DNA of 10,165 nt from NCBI GenBank assembly GCA_003601875.1, contig PIYF01000014.1:1-10165 (forward strand), written 5' to 3'. The notes under the pieces were generated by a model that was given only the letters and a program-made list of their open reading frames with translations, had not been told where the DNA came from and searched no databases. Shown here piece by piece: positions 1 through 7,841 of this stretch; within the stretch, counting starts at the first letter, position 1; every line of letters starts with the position of its first letter. The translations under genes and the position numbers were made by a program. The DNA comes from Candidatus Bathyarchaeota archaeon (GTDB lineage Archaea > Thermoproteota > Bathyarchaeia > Bathyarchaeales > Bathycorpusculaceae).

Positions 1-597
1 TATGAAGCGAAGTTTAAAACTGGTTTACTTGTCTATAGTGGAAGCACGGAAACAGTTAATTATGATGAGGCTGAAAACGATAAAGGCTTTTATTATATAG
101 AGGTTGACAAAGATAAGAATGTTCATTCAAATTTTATAAAATTGAAGTCTCCAAGAAAATTTACAGTTCTTGAACAAGATTTCACTGGAGTAGCTCCGTC
201 TAAAATTACAGAGTTAACTGTTCAACTTGTAAAGGGTGCAGATGAAGAAGGTGTTGTGATAATTCCTATTCTAAAGGGAACTTTACCCGTTGAGGCTAGC
301 CGTGCATCTGTGGATATCACTCAGATTAGAAACGCTGTTGAAAAAGCCTTACTTGTCCACCCAGTTATTCAACTGCGTGAAAGTGGAGTTTCAGAGGAGG
401 TTGTTCGTTCAATATTCGAAAGCGAATTTAAGGATTTAAAAACGAAAGCATTCGAATATTTTCTTGAAATATTCTCTCAACGTTATAGTCGTGAAGAAGC
501 AGAAAAAATAGCGAAAGTTGCAATCAAACTAATTGAACCCCTTACAAAAAAAGAAGAGGCAAGAGTGAAACAAACCTTGGAGGAACTTTTAAAATGA
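1..597 (+). CDS. mre11: Mre11 nuclease, C-terminal part (5' truncated)
   Basis: The reading frame is open from base 1 to the TGA at 595-597 (198 residues), so the gene begins upstream of the window. Mre11 is the Mn-dependent nuclease of the Mre11-Rad50 complex, which senses and trims DNA double-strand breaks. The visible part starts in the end of the phosphoesterase core, with a segment reading VYSGSTETVNYDEAENDKGF. This matches the P/S-GSTER...EAxxxKGF signature that follows the last metal ligands in Mre11/SbcD. A cap-like region and a charged helical C-terminus follow; in the family this C-terminus docks on the base of the Rad50 coiled coil. The catalytic motifs themselves lie outside the window. 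A TTG at 142 is only an internal codon and not a real start. The stop overlaps the rad50 start (ATGA), so the two are translationally coupled, which strongly supports the call. Confidence 0.9.
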   Translation, partial: YEAKFKTGLLVYSGSTETVNYDEAENDKGFYYIEVDKDKNVHSNFIKLKSPRKFTVLEQDFTGVAPSKITELTVQLVKGADEEGVVIIPILKGTLPVEASRASVDITQIRNAVEKALLVHPVIQLRESGVSEEVVRSIFESEFKDLKTKAFEYFLEIFSQRYSREEAEKIAKVAIKLIEPLTKKEEARVKQTLEELLK

Positions 598-2681
598 AGA
601 TAGAAATCGTACAGCTTGAAAACATTCGTTCCCATGTTAAATCAACAGTGCCCTTCACGAAAGGTTTCAACTGTCTTGTCGGAGGATTAGGAAGCGGAAA
701 ATCAAGCATACTATACGCTATAGACTTCGCTTTATTTGGGGATCCCATTGGAAGAAGTTATCAATATTTGTTACGAGAAAATGCAGAAAACGGACTGGTT
801 ACCATACAATTTAAACAGAACGGAAAAAGCTATAAACTATCGAGAGGCTTACAGCGACGTGGAAAAAACATAGGTCAAAATTTTGACCAACTGAAACTTT
901 TTGAAGGTGAAAAATTAATAGCAAGCGTGAAAAATGAAGCAGTAGCCGAACAGTTAAAGGCTATAACAGGGTTTGACAAGGATATTTTTCGTGAAATAGT
1001 CTGGGTTAGACAAGAACATCTAAAAGAACTTTTGGATGCAAAACCTCGAGAAAGACAGCGACGTTTAGATGAACTGTTTGGTTTATCAGAATATGAAAAA
1101 GCCTGGAGTAATCTTGCAGGCTACCAGAAAGAATATGAAGGTGAAAGAAAAGCCTACGAGAAAGACCCTGATGTTGTAGGAATAGAAAAACTTAACAAAG
1201 AATACCAAAGTGTGATTGAAGAGCTTTCACTTCTTGAAATGGATATTCAAAAAACAAGGAAAAAACTTGAGGAGGCAAAAAAAGAATTGGAAGAAGCTGA
1301 TGCGAAACTGAAAAGGCTTGAGGAAGTGAAAGTTAGAACTGAAGAACTTAAAAGAAAAGAAGCCCAAATACAAGCAAACTTAACAAATGTTGAAGATGTC
1401 TCCGCAAGCCTAGCTGAAAAAATTGAAGCAAAAAAATTAATCATTGAAAATTACAAACAACGCTTACAGTCTGCTGAAGAAAAAATTCAAAATTATGTTG
1501 AAAAACTGAAGGCGACAGGCATCCCCATAACTCAATCTTTAGAGGCATTAAAACAATATTTGACATCCTTTGATGAGCAAATCACCAGTATGAAAGGTGA
1601 ACAAGAAGCAGCAATTAAAACAATAAGGACAAACCAGAAAAGAATCTCATCCTTGTCTAAAGAAAACCGTTGTCCCCTATGTTTACAACCATTAACAGAA
1701 GAGTATAAAGAAAATATGTTAAAGAGAATTGAAGAGGAAAACAATGAAAGACAAGAGACAATAACACAACTTCAACACGACATAGAAGAACTTCAAAGAA
1801 TAAGAGATGAAGTGAATAAAGCTCTCACAGAAATACAAACTTTAACCCCTAGAATAGAGGAGTTGAGGCTTCGTATAAACGAGGAAACGCAAGCCTTAGA
1901 ACAACTTTCAGAAGAGTTTAATGAAAAACAAAAACTGGAAAACGAATTACGTGAACAATTATATGCTGTGCGAAAGGAGATAAGCCTGTTTGATTTGTCA
2001 GAGTTTGAAAATGCGAAAATTCGAAGGGAGCAAGCTTTCAAAAATTTCTATCAAATAGAATCTGACTTAAAAACAATGGAAAACAGGAAAAAAGATATGG
2101 CTAGACGTTTAGATGAATTAAAAGAGAGAATAGACTTTGCACAGCAAAAACTGGAGAGAATGGAAAAGGTATCAAAGGTCATTGAATTGATTGGGAATAT
2201 ACGGGAAGCTTATAGAAGTATCCAGCCAAAACTTAGAAGTGAATTCGTTAAACTTCTAAGAAACTTTGTCCAGCAAGTTCTGGATGATTTAATAGGCGGT
2301 GAAGGTCCAATTTTAAACGTTATGGTTGATGAAACATATACTCCTTACGTGAAAAGTGAAAGTGGTGTTGAAAGGGAAGTTTCAAACCTTTCGGGTGGTG
2401 AGAGAACTCTCTTAGCGTTTGCTTATAGACTTGGATTGGGTCAATTAATAATGCAGTCAAGAACAGGTCACGGGTTAAGTCTTCTCCTACTTGACGAACC
2501 AACGGAAAGTTTAGGCAGAGAAGACGGTTCAATAGACCGTTTAGCAGAAGCTATTTCAAAGTTTAAAGCCATCGAACAAATAATAGCTGTAACACATAGT
2601 GAAGCTTTTGCAGAAAAGGCTGAACATGTAATAAGACTTGAAAAAGAAGGGAGTATAAGTAAACTTTCAGTTGAAAAATAA
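594..2681 (+). CDS. rad50: DNA double-strand break repair ATPase Rad50 (short form)
   Basis: This is an SMC-like ATPase partner of Mre11 that tethers DNA ends and gates nuclease access. In order it shows a Walker A (GLGSGKSS, residues 31-38), a Q-loop region (WVRQEH, about 139-144), a first coiled-coil arm (about 190-355), a zinc hook CPLC (C360, C363), a second coiled-coil arm (about 375-540), an ABC signature LSGGE (599-603), a Walker B LLLLDEP (D634, E635), and a switch histidine in AVTHSEAF. At 695 residues it is shorter than many archaeal Rad50 proteins (about 850-900 residues), so the arms are short. Two oddities are seen. The D-loop position usually reads LD but here reads ESLGRED, and the Asp usually after the switch His is Ser. 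The ATG overlaps the mre11 stop by four bases. The symmetric coiled coil with a central CxxC separates it from other SMC relatives. Confidence 0.95.
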   Translation: MKIEIVQLENIRSHVKSTVPFTKGFNCLVGGLGSGKSSILYAIDFALFGDPIGRSYQYLLRENAENGLVTIQFKQNGKSYKLSRGLQRRGKNIGQNFDQLKLFEGEKLIASVKNEAVAEQLKAITGFDKDIFREIVWVRQEHLKELLDAKPRERQRRLDELFGLSEYEKAWSNLAGYQKEYEGERKAYEKDPDVVGIEKLNKEYQSVIEELSLLEMDIQKTRKKLEEAKKELEEADAKLKRLEEVKVRTEELKRKEAQIQANLTNVEDVSASLAEKIEAKKLIIENYKQRLQSAEEKIQNYVEKLKATGIPITQSLEALKQYLTSFDEQITSMKGEQEAAIKTIRTNQKRISSLSKENRCPLCLQPLTEEYKENMLKRIEEENNERQETITQLQHDIEELQRIRDEVNKALTEIQTLTPRIEELRLRINEETQALEQLSEEFNEKQKLENELREQLYAVRKEISLFDLSEFENAKIRREQAFKNFYQIESDLKTMENRKKDMARRLDELKERIDFAQQKLERMEKVSKVIELIGNIREAYRSIQPKLRSEFVKLLRNFVQQVLDDLIGGEGPILNVMVDETYTPYVKSESGVEREVSNLSGGERTLLAFAYRLGLGQLIMQSRTGHGLSLLLLDEPTESLGREDGSIDRLAEAISKFKAIEQIIAVTHSEAFAEKAEHVIRLEKEGSISKLSVEK

Positions 2682-3571: not shown

Positions 3572-3644
3572 TCTGAAAAACATTCTGGATCAAACGAAAC
3601 AAATAAAAAAGAACAGATAAGTATTAGTGCTAAAACGAGTTGAG

Positions 3645-4049
3645 ATGATGACTGCTAACGAAAAAATATTAAAATCTCTTAAATCTGCAATGAATTACTT
3701 AGAAAATTCAGTTGCAGCGTTAAATAAGAAAGATGAAAACTTAATTGCGGACAGTATTTGGCATGTTGCAGCAGAACTAGAATATGCGTTATTCCTTTTC
3801 TCAATAATGTTTCAAGACGACGTGGACAAATCAAAATGGAAGTTTAATTCAAAACCTCAATTAATCGAATTAGATTGGACTATTAAAAGGGTTAAAGAAC
3901 TTCTTAGCAATGCAGAAAAATTAGCAACAAGTAAAAATTTTCTTGAAGCTTATAAGGAAGCTTACATTGCACGACGTTATATACTTGAAGTTCAAAAAAG
4001 TTTTGCTAAAAAGAAACGTGAAGAATTAAAGAAAAAACTTAGAAAATAG
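3645..4049 (+). CDS. hypothetical small helical protein
   Basis: This is a 134-residue protein that I do not recognise. It is rich in Lys, Glu, Leu and Ala, has no Cys, and carries no signal peptide or membrane segment. The sequence suggests two long amphipathic helical hairpins. The first (about 5-62) contains DSIWHVAAELEYALFLFSI, and the second (about 75-120) contains ELDWTIKRVKELLSNAEKLA and EAYKEAYIARRYILEV. The C-terminus is very basic (KKKREELKKKLRK). The overall look recalls TPR-like or HEPN-like helical bundles, but I see no diagnostic motif for either. Tandem ATGs at 3645 and 3648 are the likely starts, behind a weak GAGTTGAG. An in-frame GTG at 3627 has no ribosome binding site. The gene converges on the eL22-like gene with one base between stops and diverges from the NIF3-family gene. 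Confidence 0.75.
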   Translation: MMTANEKILKSLKSAMNYLENSVAALNKKDENLIADSIWHVAAELEYALFLFSIMFQDDVDKSKWKFNSKPQLIELDWTIKRVKELLSNAEKLATSKNFLEAYKEAYIARRYILEVQKSFAKKKREELKKKLRK

Positions 4050-4050
4050 T

Positions 4051-4332
4051 TTATTCTTCCTCGCTTATCTTTCTCTCTTTAACCTTTAAAATGTTCTCTT
4101 TGTCACCTATGACCCTGTAATAATCTTTTAACTCGTTTTTGTGAAGGAACTTTTTCAGAAGAACTCTCAAATATTTTTTTGGAAAATCCTTTTCTTCGCT
4201 TCTTACAGTTATTTCATCCACCTTCTTTTCAACTTCACTTTCAGTTTTCTCTTCTAAAAATTTAATAAGGTCGTTGATGACGTCGTCTCCTTCTTTTTTC
4301 AATTCTGATATGTCTATTCTTTTTTCAACCAT
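4051..4332 (-). CDS. eL22 (eukaryotic ribosomal protein L22e)-like protein
   Basis: This 93-residue protein closely resembles the core of eukaryotic ribosomal protein eL22, a large-subunit protein. Residues 41-46 read ITVRSE against ITVTSE in human eL22 (human sequence recalled, not searched). Residues 50-74 keep the F-x-K-x-YL-x(2)-L-x-KK-x-L-x-KN-x-L-x-D-x(2)-RV pattern, and residues 75-89 follow the final strand. The N-terminal part (about 4-30, DISELKKEGDDVINDLIKFL) aligns with the eL22 segment before its FEQFLQERI helix. Like eL22 it ends in acidic residues (SEEE), but it lacks the long basic eukaryotic N-terminus and the loop between helix and strand is shorter. The ATG lies five bases after AGGTGA, which overlaps the stop of the preceding DUF47 gene. 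It is last in a transporter operon. It may be a ribosomal subunit or a repurposed RNA-binding fold. Confidence 0.82.
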   Translation of the reverse strand: MVEKRIDISELKKEGDDVINDLIKFLEEKTESEVEKKVDEITVRSEEKDFPKKYLRVLLKKFLHKNELKDYYRVIGDKENILKVKERKISEEE

Positions 4333-4337
4333 TTAAT

Positions 4338-4343
4338 TCACCT
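4338..4343 (-). promoter_or_regulatory. Shine-Dalgarno site of the eL22-like gene, overlapping the DUF47 stop
   Basis: AGGTGA on the minus strand shares its first bases with the TAG stop of the DUF47 gene and sits five bases before the ATG. Translation of the two genes is therefore likely coupled. Confidence 0.7.
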
Positions 4344-5001
4344 ATTTCCTCACTATAATAACTCTCACTTGATCACATGCATCTTCACATGAATCTGCGA
4401 TCATTTCTATTGATTCAATAAGCTGACTTATTAGGATAGCTATCCCTATATTCTCAAACTTTTCTTCCACCAGCAACCTTCTAATTTTCTCATGAAGCTC
4501 GTCAACTTCTTCTTCTTCTCGCTCCACTTTGTCTGCAGCTTGAAGAGCCTCTCCAGCTTTAACCATCATTTTATTTACGCATTTAAGTAGTGAGGACGCG
4601 CATTCCTTTACACTTTCAACCATGCCTTTTAATTCTCTTTTAATGGATTTAGGCACCTCGTTGGATGGTAAAACATTCAATACACGTGTAGATTCCCTTG
4701 TCCAATCAGCCACCATATCAATTCTTTTCACAAGGTCCATGAGGTCTGCTCTATCTGCAGGTGAAAGTTCTCCCCTTGAAATTTCATCCATAACTTTTCT
4801 TCTTAAGGAATCTGCCTCTTCTTCACCGCTTGCAACTCTTTTTATACATCTCTTAATTTCTTCCCTATCATTCTCTATTAAAGCGTCTATTGCTCTTTCT
4901 AAATCCTCAACAATTCCTGTTGTAAGAGTTAAATGTCTTTGAATTGTTGTTATGGCTCTGTTTTCTCTTCTCTTCTCAAACCATTTTATTAAACTACTCA
5001 A
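4342..5001 (-). CDS. DUF47/PhoU-like protein
   Basis: This 219-residue all-helical protein belongs to the DUF47 family (TIGR00153-like), relatives of PhoU. These usually sit beside phosphate or related oxyanion transporters and are thought to regulate them. It shows the acidic metal-binding pattern of the PhoU fold in two halves: GEEEADSLRRKV (59-70) with RIDMVADW (93-100), and a second charged stretch (160-173) with ESIEMIADSCED (196-207). No membrane segment is seen. The start is TTG at 5001-4999, with GGAGG nine bases upstream, and it overlaps the end of the ABC ATPase gene by eight bases, so coupling is likely. No better ATG lies nearby. DUF47 beside this ABC transporter hints that the substrate could be phosphate or another oxyanion; this is an inference. 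Confidence 0.85.
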   Translation of the reverse strand: MSSLIKWFEKRRENRAITTIQRHLTLTTGIVEDLERAIDALIENDREEIKRCIKRVASGEEEADSLRRKVMDEISRGELSPADRADLMDLVKRIDMVADWTRESTRVLNVLPSNEVPKSIKRELKGMVESVKECASSLLKCVNKMMVKAGEALQAADKVEREEEEVDELHEKIRRLLVEEKFENIGIAILISQLIESIEMIADSCEDACDQVRVIIVRK

Positions 5002-6106
5002 CCGCTAATTCCTCCCTCAAACCAACTTTTGGATAAGTAAATATGTGGGCTTTTTCAGATGGGAAACTTACCGTAACCTTTTCACCTATTTTATACCATT
5101 TCCCCGTTAAGGAAGGTCTAGTCAATATCACTAAATCTTCATTTTCAAGTCTAATTTCATATCGTACGTTTGTTCCCTCAAAGGTCATTCTCTCTATAAC
5201 TCCTAAAACAGCGTTTTTACCTTTTCTTATTTCCCTCTGAACTTTAAGGGTTTCAGGTCTTAACGCAATAACCACCCTTTCACCCTTCTTTAACTCTTCT
5301 GTAGTTTTATTAATGGTTTCGACTTTAATTCCGTTGCGAAGTTCCACAGTTATGGTTTTATCGTTTATTTCAGCAACGTATCCCTCTAGAAAGTTTGATT
5401 CTCCAATAAAATGAGCTACAAATATGCTTTTGGGGTTCATGTAAAGTTCTTCTGGGGTTCCAACCTGCAAAATTTTCCCTTTCTTCATGACGGCTATTCT
5501 ATCAGATATTGCCATGGCTTCAGCTTGGTCGTGGGTTACATGAATTGCCGTTAACCCCAAATCCTTTGTCATTTTCCTTATTTCATATCTCAACTCATTT
5601 CTAACTTTTGCGTCAAGCTGTCCTAATGGTTCGTCTAACAGAAGAAGTTTTGCACCAGCAGCTAAAGCCCTTGCAACAGCTATTCTCTGCATCATTCCAC
5701 CGCTTAATTCATTTGGAAACGCATCCAACCTCTCATGTAGTCTAACCATTTCAAGAACTTCATGGCCTATCCTCTTCGCTTTTTTCATATCGAAACCCTT
5801 AACTCTAGGACCGTAAATTACATTGTCCCAAACATCCATATGAGGAAATAAAGCAAAAGTTTGAAAGACAAAGCCGACGTCTCTGTCTTCCGGCGGAACA
5901 TCATTGACAAGCCTGTTTCCAATGTAAATTTCTCCTTTATCAGGCTTTATTAATCCAGCTATCAACCTAAGCAGAGTTGTCTTTCCACATCCGCTTGGAC
6001 CCAGCAAAGCGAAATATTCTTTATCATGAACATGAATACTCACGTTATCCACAGCCACTATTTTTCCATAAGTTTTCGTCACGTTAACCAAGCGGACATC
6101 AGGCAT
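4994..6106 (-). CDS. ABC transporter ATPase with TOBE domain (FbpC/PotA/CysA type)
   Basis: This 370-residue protein is the cytoplasmic ATPase of an importer. It has Walker A GPSGCGKTT (36-44), Q-loop Gln82 in VFQTFALFPH, signature LSGGMMQR (134-141), Walker B LLLLDEP (154-160), D-loop QLDAK, and H-loop His192 in THDQAEAM. After about residue 235 a C-terminal region with a TOBE_2-like fold follows (segments near ESNFLEGYVAEI and ALRPETLKVQ), as in iron, spermidine/putrescine and sulfate ATPases. The signature has MM where QQ is common. The ATG is preceded eight bases upstream by GGAGA. It follows the permease after 52 bases and overlaps DUF47 by eight bases. The family fold does not fix the substrate: iron(III), phosphonate, thiamine, polyamine or an oxyanion all fit. 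The ATPase assignment is sure and the substrate is not. Confidence 0.93.
   Translation of the reverse strand: MPDVRLVNVTKTYGKIVAVDNVSIHVHDKEYFALLGPSGCGKTTLLRLIAGLIKPDKGEIYIGNRLVNDVPPEDRDVGFVFQTFALFPHMDVWDNVIYGPRVKGFDMKKAKRIGHEVLEMVRLHERLDAFPNELSGGMMQRIAVARALAAGAKLLLLDEPLGQLDAKVRNELRYEIRKMTKDLGLTAIHVTHDQAEAMAISDRIAVMKKGKILQVGTPEELYMNPKSIFVAHFIGESNFLEGYVAEINDKTITVELRNGIKVETINKTTEELKKGERVVIALRPETLKVQREIRKGKNAVLGVIERMTFEGTNVRYEIRLENEDLVILTRPSLTGKWYKIGEKVTVSFPSEKAHIFTYPKVGLREELAVE
5011..5015 (-). promoter_or_regulatory. Shine-Dalgarno site of the DUF47 gene
   Basis: GGAGG on the minus strand, within the end of the ABC ATPase gene, lies nine bases before the TTG start and supports that start. Confidence 0.6.
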
Positions 6107-6158: not shown

Positions 6159-7841
6159 CTAATATACCTCTCTTCCCCTCACAATTAACCTCAAGATCAG
6201 CAAAATTATAAATGAAAACAATATAAGAAAACCGCAGCCTAAACCTAAAATTGTTGTTGGAACTCCGCTTTTAACCCAATTAACAAGTAAAACAGGAGCA
6301 GTAACAAGGTTACTAACAACCATTGTTGCTCCAGTTTCACTCACACTTCTTGTGAAAACCATAATGGCACCTGAAAGCATAGAATATTTAGTTAATGGAA
6401 AAACTATTGTTCTGAAAACTGCAAAAGGTTTTGCACCTAAAGTTCTTGCAGCTTCCTCAAGGTTAACGTTTATCCTTTCAATAGCAGCCGACATGGATCT
6501 AACAAAATACGGATAAGTAATAGCCATATGCGCGAAAATTAAAGGCCCCATTTCTGGGAGAAAACCAAAGTTTTTCCAAAAAATTGATAGTGACGCTCCT
6601 AAAGCGACGGATGGAACAACCAGCGGAATATTAACGAGAACATCCAATATTATAGAAGGTAGTTCTCCAAAGGTTTTTCTTGCAATTGCTATAGCCATCG
6701 GTAAACCTATTATCATATTTATCAACGTGACAATACCGCCTAAAAAGTAAGTTAAAATTATACTTTGCCAATATTCCCTCCAAACACCAGAGCCAGATAA
6801 AGCCTGTGAAAGGGTCGTTCCTCCAAAAATAGCTTTAAAAGCTGGAAAAGCAACAAAAAGAGAAGGAATCAAAATAAGAGCGAAAAATATTAAAAGTGCT
6901 AAACCATTTCGCGAGGCAGTCACTCCTGATGAACTAAGCTTCCTTTCAGCATTAGGCCAAACTTTTCTAACAGGAAGTTTTAATCTAGGACCAAGCAATT
7001 TAATTGTTATAAATATAAGGCTAGCGATTACTATTAAAATGAAACTTACAAAAACCAAAGGGCCATTCTGATTAAGGTCGTGATATTTTTTTATGAATAA
7101 TGGACCGTTAATGAACGCTGTTCCTGCAACCATCATTGTTGCTCCAGTTTCTGAAATAGACCTTGCAAAGGCTAAAATGAAAGATGCTATCATTGATGGT
7201 TTTAAAATTGGAAGAGTCACCGTTCTTGCGGCTGTTAGAGGTGAAGCACCTAAAGTTCTAGACGCTTGTTCATATTCTAACTTGTAATCTAATAATGCTC
7301 CAACCATAACTCTAGTAACTACTGGATAAGAAAAGGTGAAATGTAAGAGAATAACTAGTAGCCAACCTGGAGAAATTAAAGATTTTCCAAAAAGTGATGA
7401 TAATCCATCTTCACTCCAGAAAAGTAACAATGAATAACCAAGCGTGGCTGTTGGCACAATAAATGGGATATCCACAAACGTGTCTATAACGTTTAACCAC
7501 TTCGACTTCCCTCTTGCAATAAGCCAAGCCATAGGAATTCCAGCCGCTAAATCTATAACAGAAACAAAAATTGCAACCCAAAGAGAATTTCCAATGGCGT
7601 TTAAAGCTTCACTCATAAGTTTTGGCTGAGATAACACTTGCTCCATTTCTCCCCATTTCATTATTACACCTAAAATTGGAGGAATAAGAATTAACGTGAA
7701 AAAAATGATTATCGAAGATAGGTAAATGGTGTTCCTTAAAGACCGCTTTGCTGAGAGTTTATCCAAGACTTTAATGATTTCAGGCAAACACTTTCCGCCC
7801 ACATTCCAGCCAAATTCCCTTTTTCCACTAGTTTTTAACAC
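6159..7841 (-). CDS. ABC transporter permease, fused two-domain (FbpB/ThiP type)
   Basis: This 560-residue membrane protein contains two tandem binding-protein-dependent permease domains, so a single chain can replace the usual homodimer or heterodimer. About twelve membrane segments are visible, among them about 39-61, 84-107, 122-142, 159-180, 220-240, 262-284, 313-335, 362-385, 395-420 and 535-553. Each half carries an EAA loop that contacts the ATPase: EQASRTLGASPLTAARTVTLP (191-211) and EEAARTLGAKPFAVFRTIVFP (462-482). Each is followed by a matching R-S-x-SETGATM segment (227-236 and 498-507), which shows the internal duplication. The fused layout is typical of COG1178-type permeases. 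The GTG at 7841 is the longest start; an internal GTG at residue 14 or a TTG at 19 are alternatives, since none has a clear ribosome binding site. A TATA-like box about 20 bases upstream suggests a leaderless start. No substrate-binding protein gene lies beside it. Confidence 0.92.
   Translation of the reverse strand: MLKTSGKREFGWNVGGKCLPEIIKVLDKLSAKRSLRNTIYLSSIIIFFTLILIPPILGVIMKWGEMEQVLSQPKLMSEALNAIGNSLWVAIFVSVIDLAAGIPMAWLIARGKSKWLNVIDTFVDIPFIVPTATLGYSLLLFWSEDGLSSLFGKSLISPGWLLVILLHFTFSYPVVTRVMVGALLDYKLEYEQASRTLGASPLTAARTVTLPILKPSMIASFILAFARSISETGATMMVAGTAFINGPLFIKKYHDLNQNGPLVFVSFILIVIASLIFITIKLLGPRLKLPVRKVWPNAERKLSSSGVTASRNGLALLIFFALILIPSLFVAFPAFKAIFGGTTLSQALSGSGVWREYWQSIILTYFLGGIVTLINMIIGLPMAIAIARKTFGELPSIILDVLVNIPLVVPSVALGASLSIFWKNFGFLPEMGPLIFAHMAITYPYFVRSMSAAIERINVNLEEAARTLGAKPFAVFRTIVFPLTKYSMLSGAIMVFTRSVSETGATMVVSNLVTAPVLLVNWVKSGVPTTILGLGCGFLILFSFIILLILRLIVRGREVY

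Follow-up and report, generated by a model that had tools for sequence, protein, structure and literature searches.

In the sections available to us of the published reports closest to this locus, eL22 (L22e, RPL22) in archaea is described from the Asgard group: L22e was reported in Lokiarchaeum (PMC4571567), eL22 and eL28 were found in some Asgard archaea (PMC8997704), and Eme and others recorded RPL22e in several Asgard phyla and, within the Heimdallarchaeia, in the Hodarchaeales only, counting it among the informational 'eukaryotic signature proteins' that back an affiliation between Hodarchaeales and eukaryotes (PMC10307638). For human L22, the available part of the paper by Houmani and Ruf states that the basic residues 80-93 are required for high-affinity 28S rRNA binding and incorporation into the ribosome, with residues 88-93 as the critical part, while 28S binding persists when residues 80-84 alone are changed (PMC2668802). 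No title or abstract among the literature matches listed, which comprised open-access articles and neither subscription papers nor preprints, dealt with eL22 in Bathyarchaeia or other Thermoproteota, and the available parts of PMC10833476, PMC12993045, PMC8339473 and PMC8561730 added nothing new on eL22.

We analysed a stretch of 10,165 nucleotides from a Candidatus Bathyarchaeota archaeon (contig PIYF01000014.1; hereafter the window), the source genome of which comprises 0.6 Mb, is 66 % complete and contains a single PF01776 match. A preliminary description of this DNA had proposed that one short product is a homologue of eL22, and the core motifs named there, i.e. ITVRSE, FPKKYLRVLLKKFLHKNELKDYYRV and an EEE end, are all present in the translation (Table 1). 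The profile search bears this out: PF01776 matches the window protein at E = 1.5e-9 with 38.6 bits (cut-off 23.6), and all 44 members of the A1 alignment match it at E <= 0.001. In a phmmer search against the PDB, eL22 chains rank first (best E = 8.3e-7), whereas the reversed protein, used as a control, retrieved no eL22 at E <= 1 and just two Anamorsin chains (0.79 and 0.87). The homology covers nearly the full length, and the predicted model, a check that had also been suggested, has the eL22 fold over the whole domain with a helix spanning residues 52-65. NCBIfam gave no match to the window protein at E <= 1, and PHROGs a single one (E 0.021) to an entry without annotated function. By these comparisons, the window protein is confirmed, at the level of sequence and model, as a real eL22 homologue.

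Table 1. Features at and around the eL22 gene in the window
Feature	Position	Strand	Remarks
eL22 homologue	4051..4332	-	ATG-to-stop ORF, 93 aa + stop
Codons of residues 52-65 (KKYLRVLLKKFLHK)	4138..4179	-	aligns with human L22 residues 80-93
Codons of acidic C-terminal EEE	4054..4062	-	two or more of the six final residues acidic in 43 of 44 rows
Shine-Dalgarno-like AGGTGA	4338..4343	-	overlaps DUF47 stop TAG (4344-4342); read from the sequence
DUF47 / PhoU_div protein, 219 aa, upstream neighbour	4342..5001	-	PF01865, E 1.3e-31
ABC transporter ATPase with TOBE_2 domain	4994..6106	-	PF00005, E 1.4e-32; PF08402, E 5.3e-12
ABC transporter permease, two BPD_transp_1 stretches	6159..7841	-	PF00528, E 7.1e-25
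Rad50/SMC-like ATPase, 695 aa	594..2681	+	PF02463, 50.4 bits; PF13476, 39.3 bits; both above cut-offs

The eL22 gene lies outside any ribosomal operon. As described beforehand, it comes last on the minus strand, after permease, ABC ATPase and DUF47; its ATG (4332-4330) follows DUF47 on the same strand after a gap of 9 bases, and the ribosome-binding site placed inside the DUF47 stop is indeed found there. The Rad50-like ATPase also shows a zinc hook (PF04423) at 22.1 bits, below the cut-off of 24.3, and is preceded by the C-terminal piece of what we take by eye to be an Mre11-like nuclease (both within 1-2681, plus strand). A conserved gene of 140 aa (3627-4049, plus strand) converges with eL22 and recurs in 10 of 28 canonical loci; a Pfam search with it gave no convincing match. 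Rfam models did not match the window at gathering scores.

The residues that bind rRNA in human L22 can be followed into the archaeal proteins by our own residue matching, taken from the phmmer/PDB alignment. K52, R56, K60 and K61 of the window protein are the equivalents of human K80, K84, K88 and K89, and are Lys or Arg in 44, 44, 43 and 44 of the 44 aligned rows; R73 is basic in all 44. Residue 53 (human R81) is basic in 29 rows. Within the human 88-93 cluster, K88 and K89 are thus kept, K93 (residue 65) is Lys or Arg in 35 of 44 rows, and K92 (residue 64) is basic in none, being replaced by His in 43. The basic cluster equivalent to human 80-93 is therefore present at most positions, not all. 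The acidic tail, kept in nearly all of these rows (Table 1), is found in 3 of 8 divergent class members and in 9 of 15 other-class members, the sequences of these 15 being cut at 90-100 residues. The preliminary description had left the choice between a ribosomal subunit in a lineage close to eukaryotes and an ancestral fold that had not yet joined the ribosome. The RNA-binding residues and the acidic tail would speak more for a genuine subunit of the ribosome than for an ancestral fold only, while the proximity to eukaryotes finds no support, because the host belongs to the Bathyarchaeia (Thermoproteota/TACK), in which eL22 is widespread.

This spread depends on the profile used. PF01776 matches 42 of 60 relatives and 47 of 398 genomes of the phylum, all of the latter but G354 in the order of the window; G354, with four stops inside the match and a score below the cut-off, was taken as spurious. 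The A1 profile matches 139 of the 256 class genomes; by our count, 116 of these belong to the window's order, and the 23 matches from outside this order are mostly weak and divergent. It matches 80 of the 90 genomes of the window's family, nine of the ten non-matching ones being at most 85 % complete. The broader A3 profile matches 66 of the 398 phylum genomes: 48 belong to the order, four to the rest of the class and 14 to families beyond the class (f20-f24, f45 and f60), the match in f24 (G064) being doubtful. The A9 profile, built mostly from such outsiders with two class rows and none from the window's family (P0224 carries the NCBI name Bathyarchaeota), again matches 66 of 398, adding G063 and dropping G064, and finds the window protein at 2.7e-15. 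Given its E of 5.7e-4, one stop and absence from the A9 matches, G064 is likely spurious as an eL22 carrier. Neither A3 nor A9 found eL22 in any of the 11 genomes of family f2, which belongs to the same order.

Pfam does not call the outsider proteins, which bear record names such as 'hypothetical protein [Thermoproteota / Thaumarchaeota / Nitrososphaerales archaeon]': five of nine rows of the outsider set A8 match PF01776 at E <= 1, the best at 6.1e-4, and one printed score is 19.6 bits against a cut-off of 23.6. As a profile, A8 finds eL22 in the PDB at 8.2e-8; among the best 60 of its 71 matches at E <= 10, 57 are named L22 or eL22 and three are ribosome chains otherwise named, and its alignment with the A1 profile reaches a probability of 99.0 (E 5e-18). 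The Nitrososphaerota-type set A10 matches the PDB weakly (best 0.027, with eL22 in five of six matches) and aligns with A1 at a probability of 96.4 (E 1.3e-9). Proteins such as P0342, P0329, P0303, P0259 and P0272 combine an eL22-like core with long Lys/Ala/Glu-rich tails in about 130-160 aa; several come from Nitrososphaerota MAGs, mostly under the names 'hypothetical protein' or 'sRNA-binding protein'. A genome scan for Asgard sequences with an alignment of the yeast, Tetrahymena and window proteins matched 588 stretches, none of which was confirmed, and eL28 (PF01778) was found in none of 60 genomes, the control genomes giving no match either.

The preliminary description had named eL22 a eukaryotic signature with Asgard relatives and was unsure of its wider spread. 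The Asgard part agrees with the literature; since relatives also occur across the Bathyarchaeia and in several more lineages of this phylum, eukaryotes and the related Asgard archaea cannot be recognised by possession of eL22 alone. The distribution may be explained by a gene passed on mainly vertically within the Bathyarchaeia and lost in some families. Most eL22-bearing genomes have one strong match each. Two single-contig genomes carry two canonical copies at separate sites, i.e. L061 and L062 in G519, and L079 and L080 in G522. In L018 and L020 of genus g6, the eL22 frame opens straight after a stop and contains none of the starts ATG, GTG and TTG ahead of its conserved N-terminus, which points to an unusual start codon or to a frameshift.

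Divergent relatives with distinct tails were also encountered. Twelve rows (L072, L074 and L090-L099) from 10 genomes that also bear canonical eL22 represent a paralogue of eL22 fold ending in HGW, HGF or WGL, which Pfam misses; the eL22 fold is present in set A11, which joins this type with one bearing PYFFP-like tails (L069, L070, L071, L073 and L078, from class members where canonical eL22 was not seen). In the 12 rows of the HGW/WGL type, the equivalents of K52, R56, K60 and R73 are basic in 1, 3, 3 and 0 and that of K61 in 12, so that most of the basic RNA-binding residues are missing from this type. In the five PYFFP rows, the equivalents of R56 and R73 are basic in all, K61 in four, K60 in three and K52 in none. 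The idea that both tail types had lost the RNA-binding face was dropped after this residue recount, which shows such a loss in the HGW/WGL type only. Since the HGW/WGL paralogue has lost most of these residues, the eL22 fold does take other roles.

Gene neighbourhoods were counted at 28 canonical loci from 26 genomes (27 fetched plus the window), hand-picked for long contigs and family diversity, by a simple ORF caller over mostly about 5 kb on each side, where contig ends may hide genes. DUF47 was found at 14, an ATPase at 13, a permease at 13, an Mre11-like gene at 17 and a Rad50-like gene, the commonest of the neighbours counted, at 20; neither ATPase nor permease was seen at 15 loci, some of which stop near a contig end. 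In two loci of one genus from another class (L085 and L086), DUF47 directly precedes eL22, so that the DUF47-eL22 pair, a survey of which had been proposed, recurs beyond the class. The gene before eL22 in L087, as in L057, looks by eye like PurA, and genes near the eL22-like gene in L083, L084, L087 and L089 are presumably GatD- and GatE-like, likewise named by eye. GatD and GatE make Gln-tRNA, and the neighbourhood would accordingly represent a translation context. The position of eL22 is partly conserved between genomes. Its sequence diverges faster than those of four neighbours (mean pairwise identity 52.4 % vs 61.9-72.5 %).

A comparison of 23S rRNA covered 47 genomes, 28 of which gave a match; 17 whole-model matches were aligned, i.e. 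11 with eL22, five without and one with the tail form only. The domain III region corresponding to E. coli 1430-1560 measures 125-128, 126-130 and 126 nt in these three groups, respectively, and this near-equal length with and without eL22 reveals no insertion or expansion co-varying with the protein in that region of the 17 genomes. Three 23S genes are much longer than the other aligned ones, i.e. L141 (G437) with 4805, L138 (G027) with 3844 and L136 (G051) with 3409 nt, measured across the family model, which suggests introns or large insertions. In the single-contig genomes G518, G519, G520 and G521, the 23S rRNA match was, under strict filters, incomplete or split into pieces that in some cases lie far apart, possibly due to broken rRNA genes or assembly faults.

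Taken together, we consider it likely that the window protein is an archaeal orthologue of the ribosomal protein eL22, and, judged from its sequence, a ribosomal protein of the Bathyarchaeia is most likely what it is. It would bind 23S rRNA via the helix 52-65 and Arg73, as eL22 does in eukaryotes, and its predicted site, by analogy with eukaryotic eL22, is close to the tunnel exit of the large subunit, where the acidic tail may lie near helix 59 and the SecY channel; the tail of eukaryotic eL22 has been proposed to help keep the positively charged residues of membrane proteins inside. A role in the DUF47/ABC transporter operon, as its regulator or an accessory component, would account for the shared strand, the 9-base gap, the ribosome-binding site overlapping DUF47 and the recurrence of DUF47 at half of the canonical loci and beside eL22 in L085 and L086. 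This is nevertheless very improbable, since the 15 of 28 loci without ATPase and permease make the transporter a neighbour rather than a needed partner, the Rad50-like gene is the commoner neighbour, and other lineages place eL22 beside PurA-like or near GatD/GatE-like genes. The tie to a transporter operon noted beforehand thus holds for the window, where eL22 ends the permease-ATPase-DUF47 run, but is a local one, and the position behind the operon would reflect inherited gene order with no functional tie.

An RNA-binding protein of eL22 fold acting outside the ribosome, e.g. an RNA regulator, with the ribosomal role confined to the eukaryote/Asgard line, would be in keeping with a gene outside ribosomal operons, its absence from family f2, its fast divergence, the lack of a signature in the 23S rRNA comparison and the paralogue stripped of most RNA-binding residues. 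We regard this as unlikely, as the equivalents of human K80, K84, K88 and K89 and the acidic end are almost invariant, and the Nitrososphaerota-type members carry Lys/Glu-rich tails, which are common in ribosomal proteins. To a similar degree we doubt that a gene of the same ribosomal function was acquired horizontally from Asgard archaea or eukaryotes. The patchy spread, with 66 of 398 phylum genomes matching and 48 of these falling in the window's order, would fit such a transfer; however, taxonomic families cluster in the tree, and the DUF47-eL22 and PurA-eL22 neighbourhoods recur across families and classes. The tree is no direct test of transfer, because it holds two eukaryotic rows only, set as outgroup, and it is poorly resolved at depth, with weak deep forks. 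Its 16 group labels together need 15 changes, which is the minimum, although f1, f4 and the tail rows each fail to form a single clade.

Returning to a ribosomal eL22, it is tempting to speculate, although we hold this as a tentative proposal only, that eL22 is of ancient archaeal origin, having been invented neither by eukaryotes nor by Asgard archaea: it would have belonged to the large ribosomal subunit before the Thermoproteota and the Asgard/eukaryote line separated, with many losses thereafter. In the Bathyarchaeia, a second copy may have become a paralogue that kept the fold but little of the rRNA-binding face and acquired a conserved aromatic C-terminus (HGW, HGF or WGL), possibly as a new ribosome-associated or RNA-independent factor. 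The wide and patchy spread in the Thermoproteota is the interesting part of the finding: if eL22 also occurs in Bathyarchaeia and other Thermoproteota, with most of its rRNA-binding residues preserved, then having it is no longer a distinction of the Asgard-eukaryote line, and its patchiness informs more on loss or transfer. Because one order includes families with and without eL22, it would offer an archaeal model for the gain and loss of a protein at the tunnel-exit side of the ribosome.

Compared with eukaryotic eL22 (RPL22, PF01776), identity is 22-34 % among the 50 structural alignments listed. The window protein lacks the N-terminal lysine cluster of human L22 (13-16, nuclear import), is about 8-12 residues shorter in mid-protein, with a gap site that varies between alignments, and has His at the position of human K92; unlike eukaryotic RPL22, its gene lies in a prokaryotic operon. 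Asgard L22e, known from Lokiarchaeum and Hodarchaeales, is also an archaeal homologue of eL22, as judged from the published descriptions available to us (PMC4571567, PMC8997704, PMC10307638), and belongs to another phylum. The NCBI records '60S ribosomal protein L22 [Candidatus Bathyarchaeota archaeon]' represent the same family (P0040, for example, is 66 % identical); we found the name alone in them, with no analysis of context or residues, and assume that it was given automatically. What is new here is therefore a further lineage for a known protein, plus its Pfam-negative branches.
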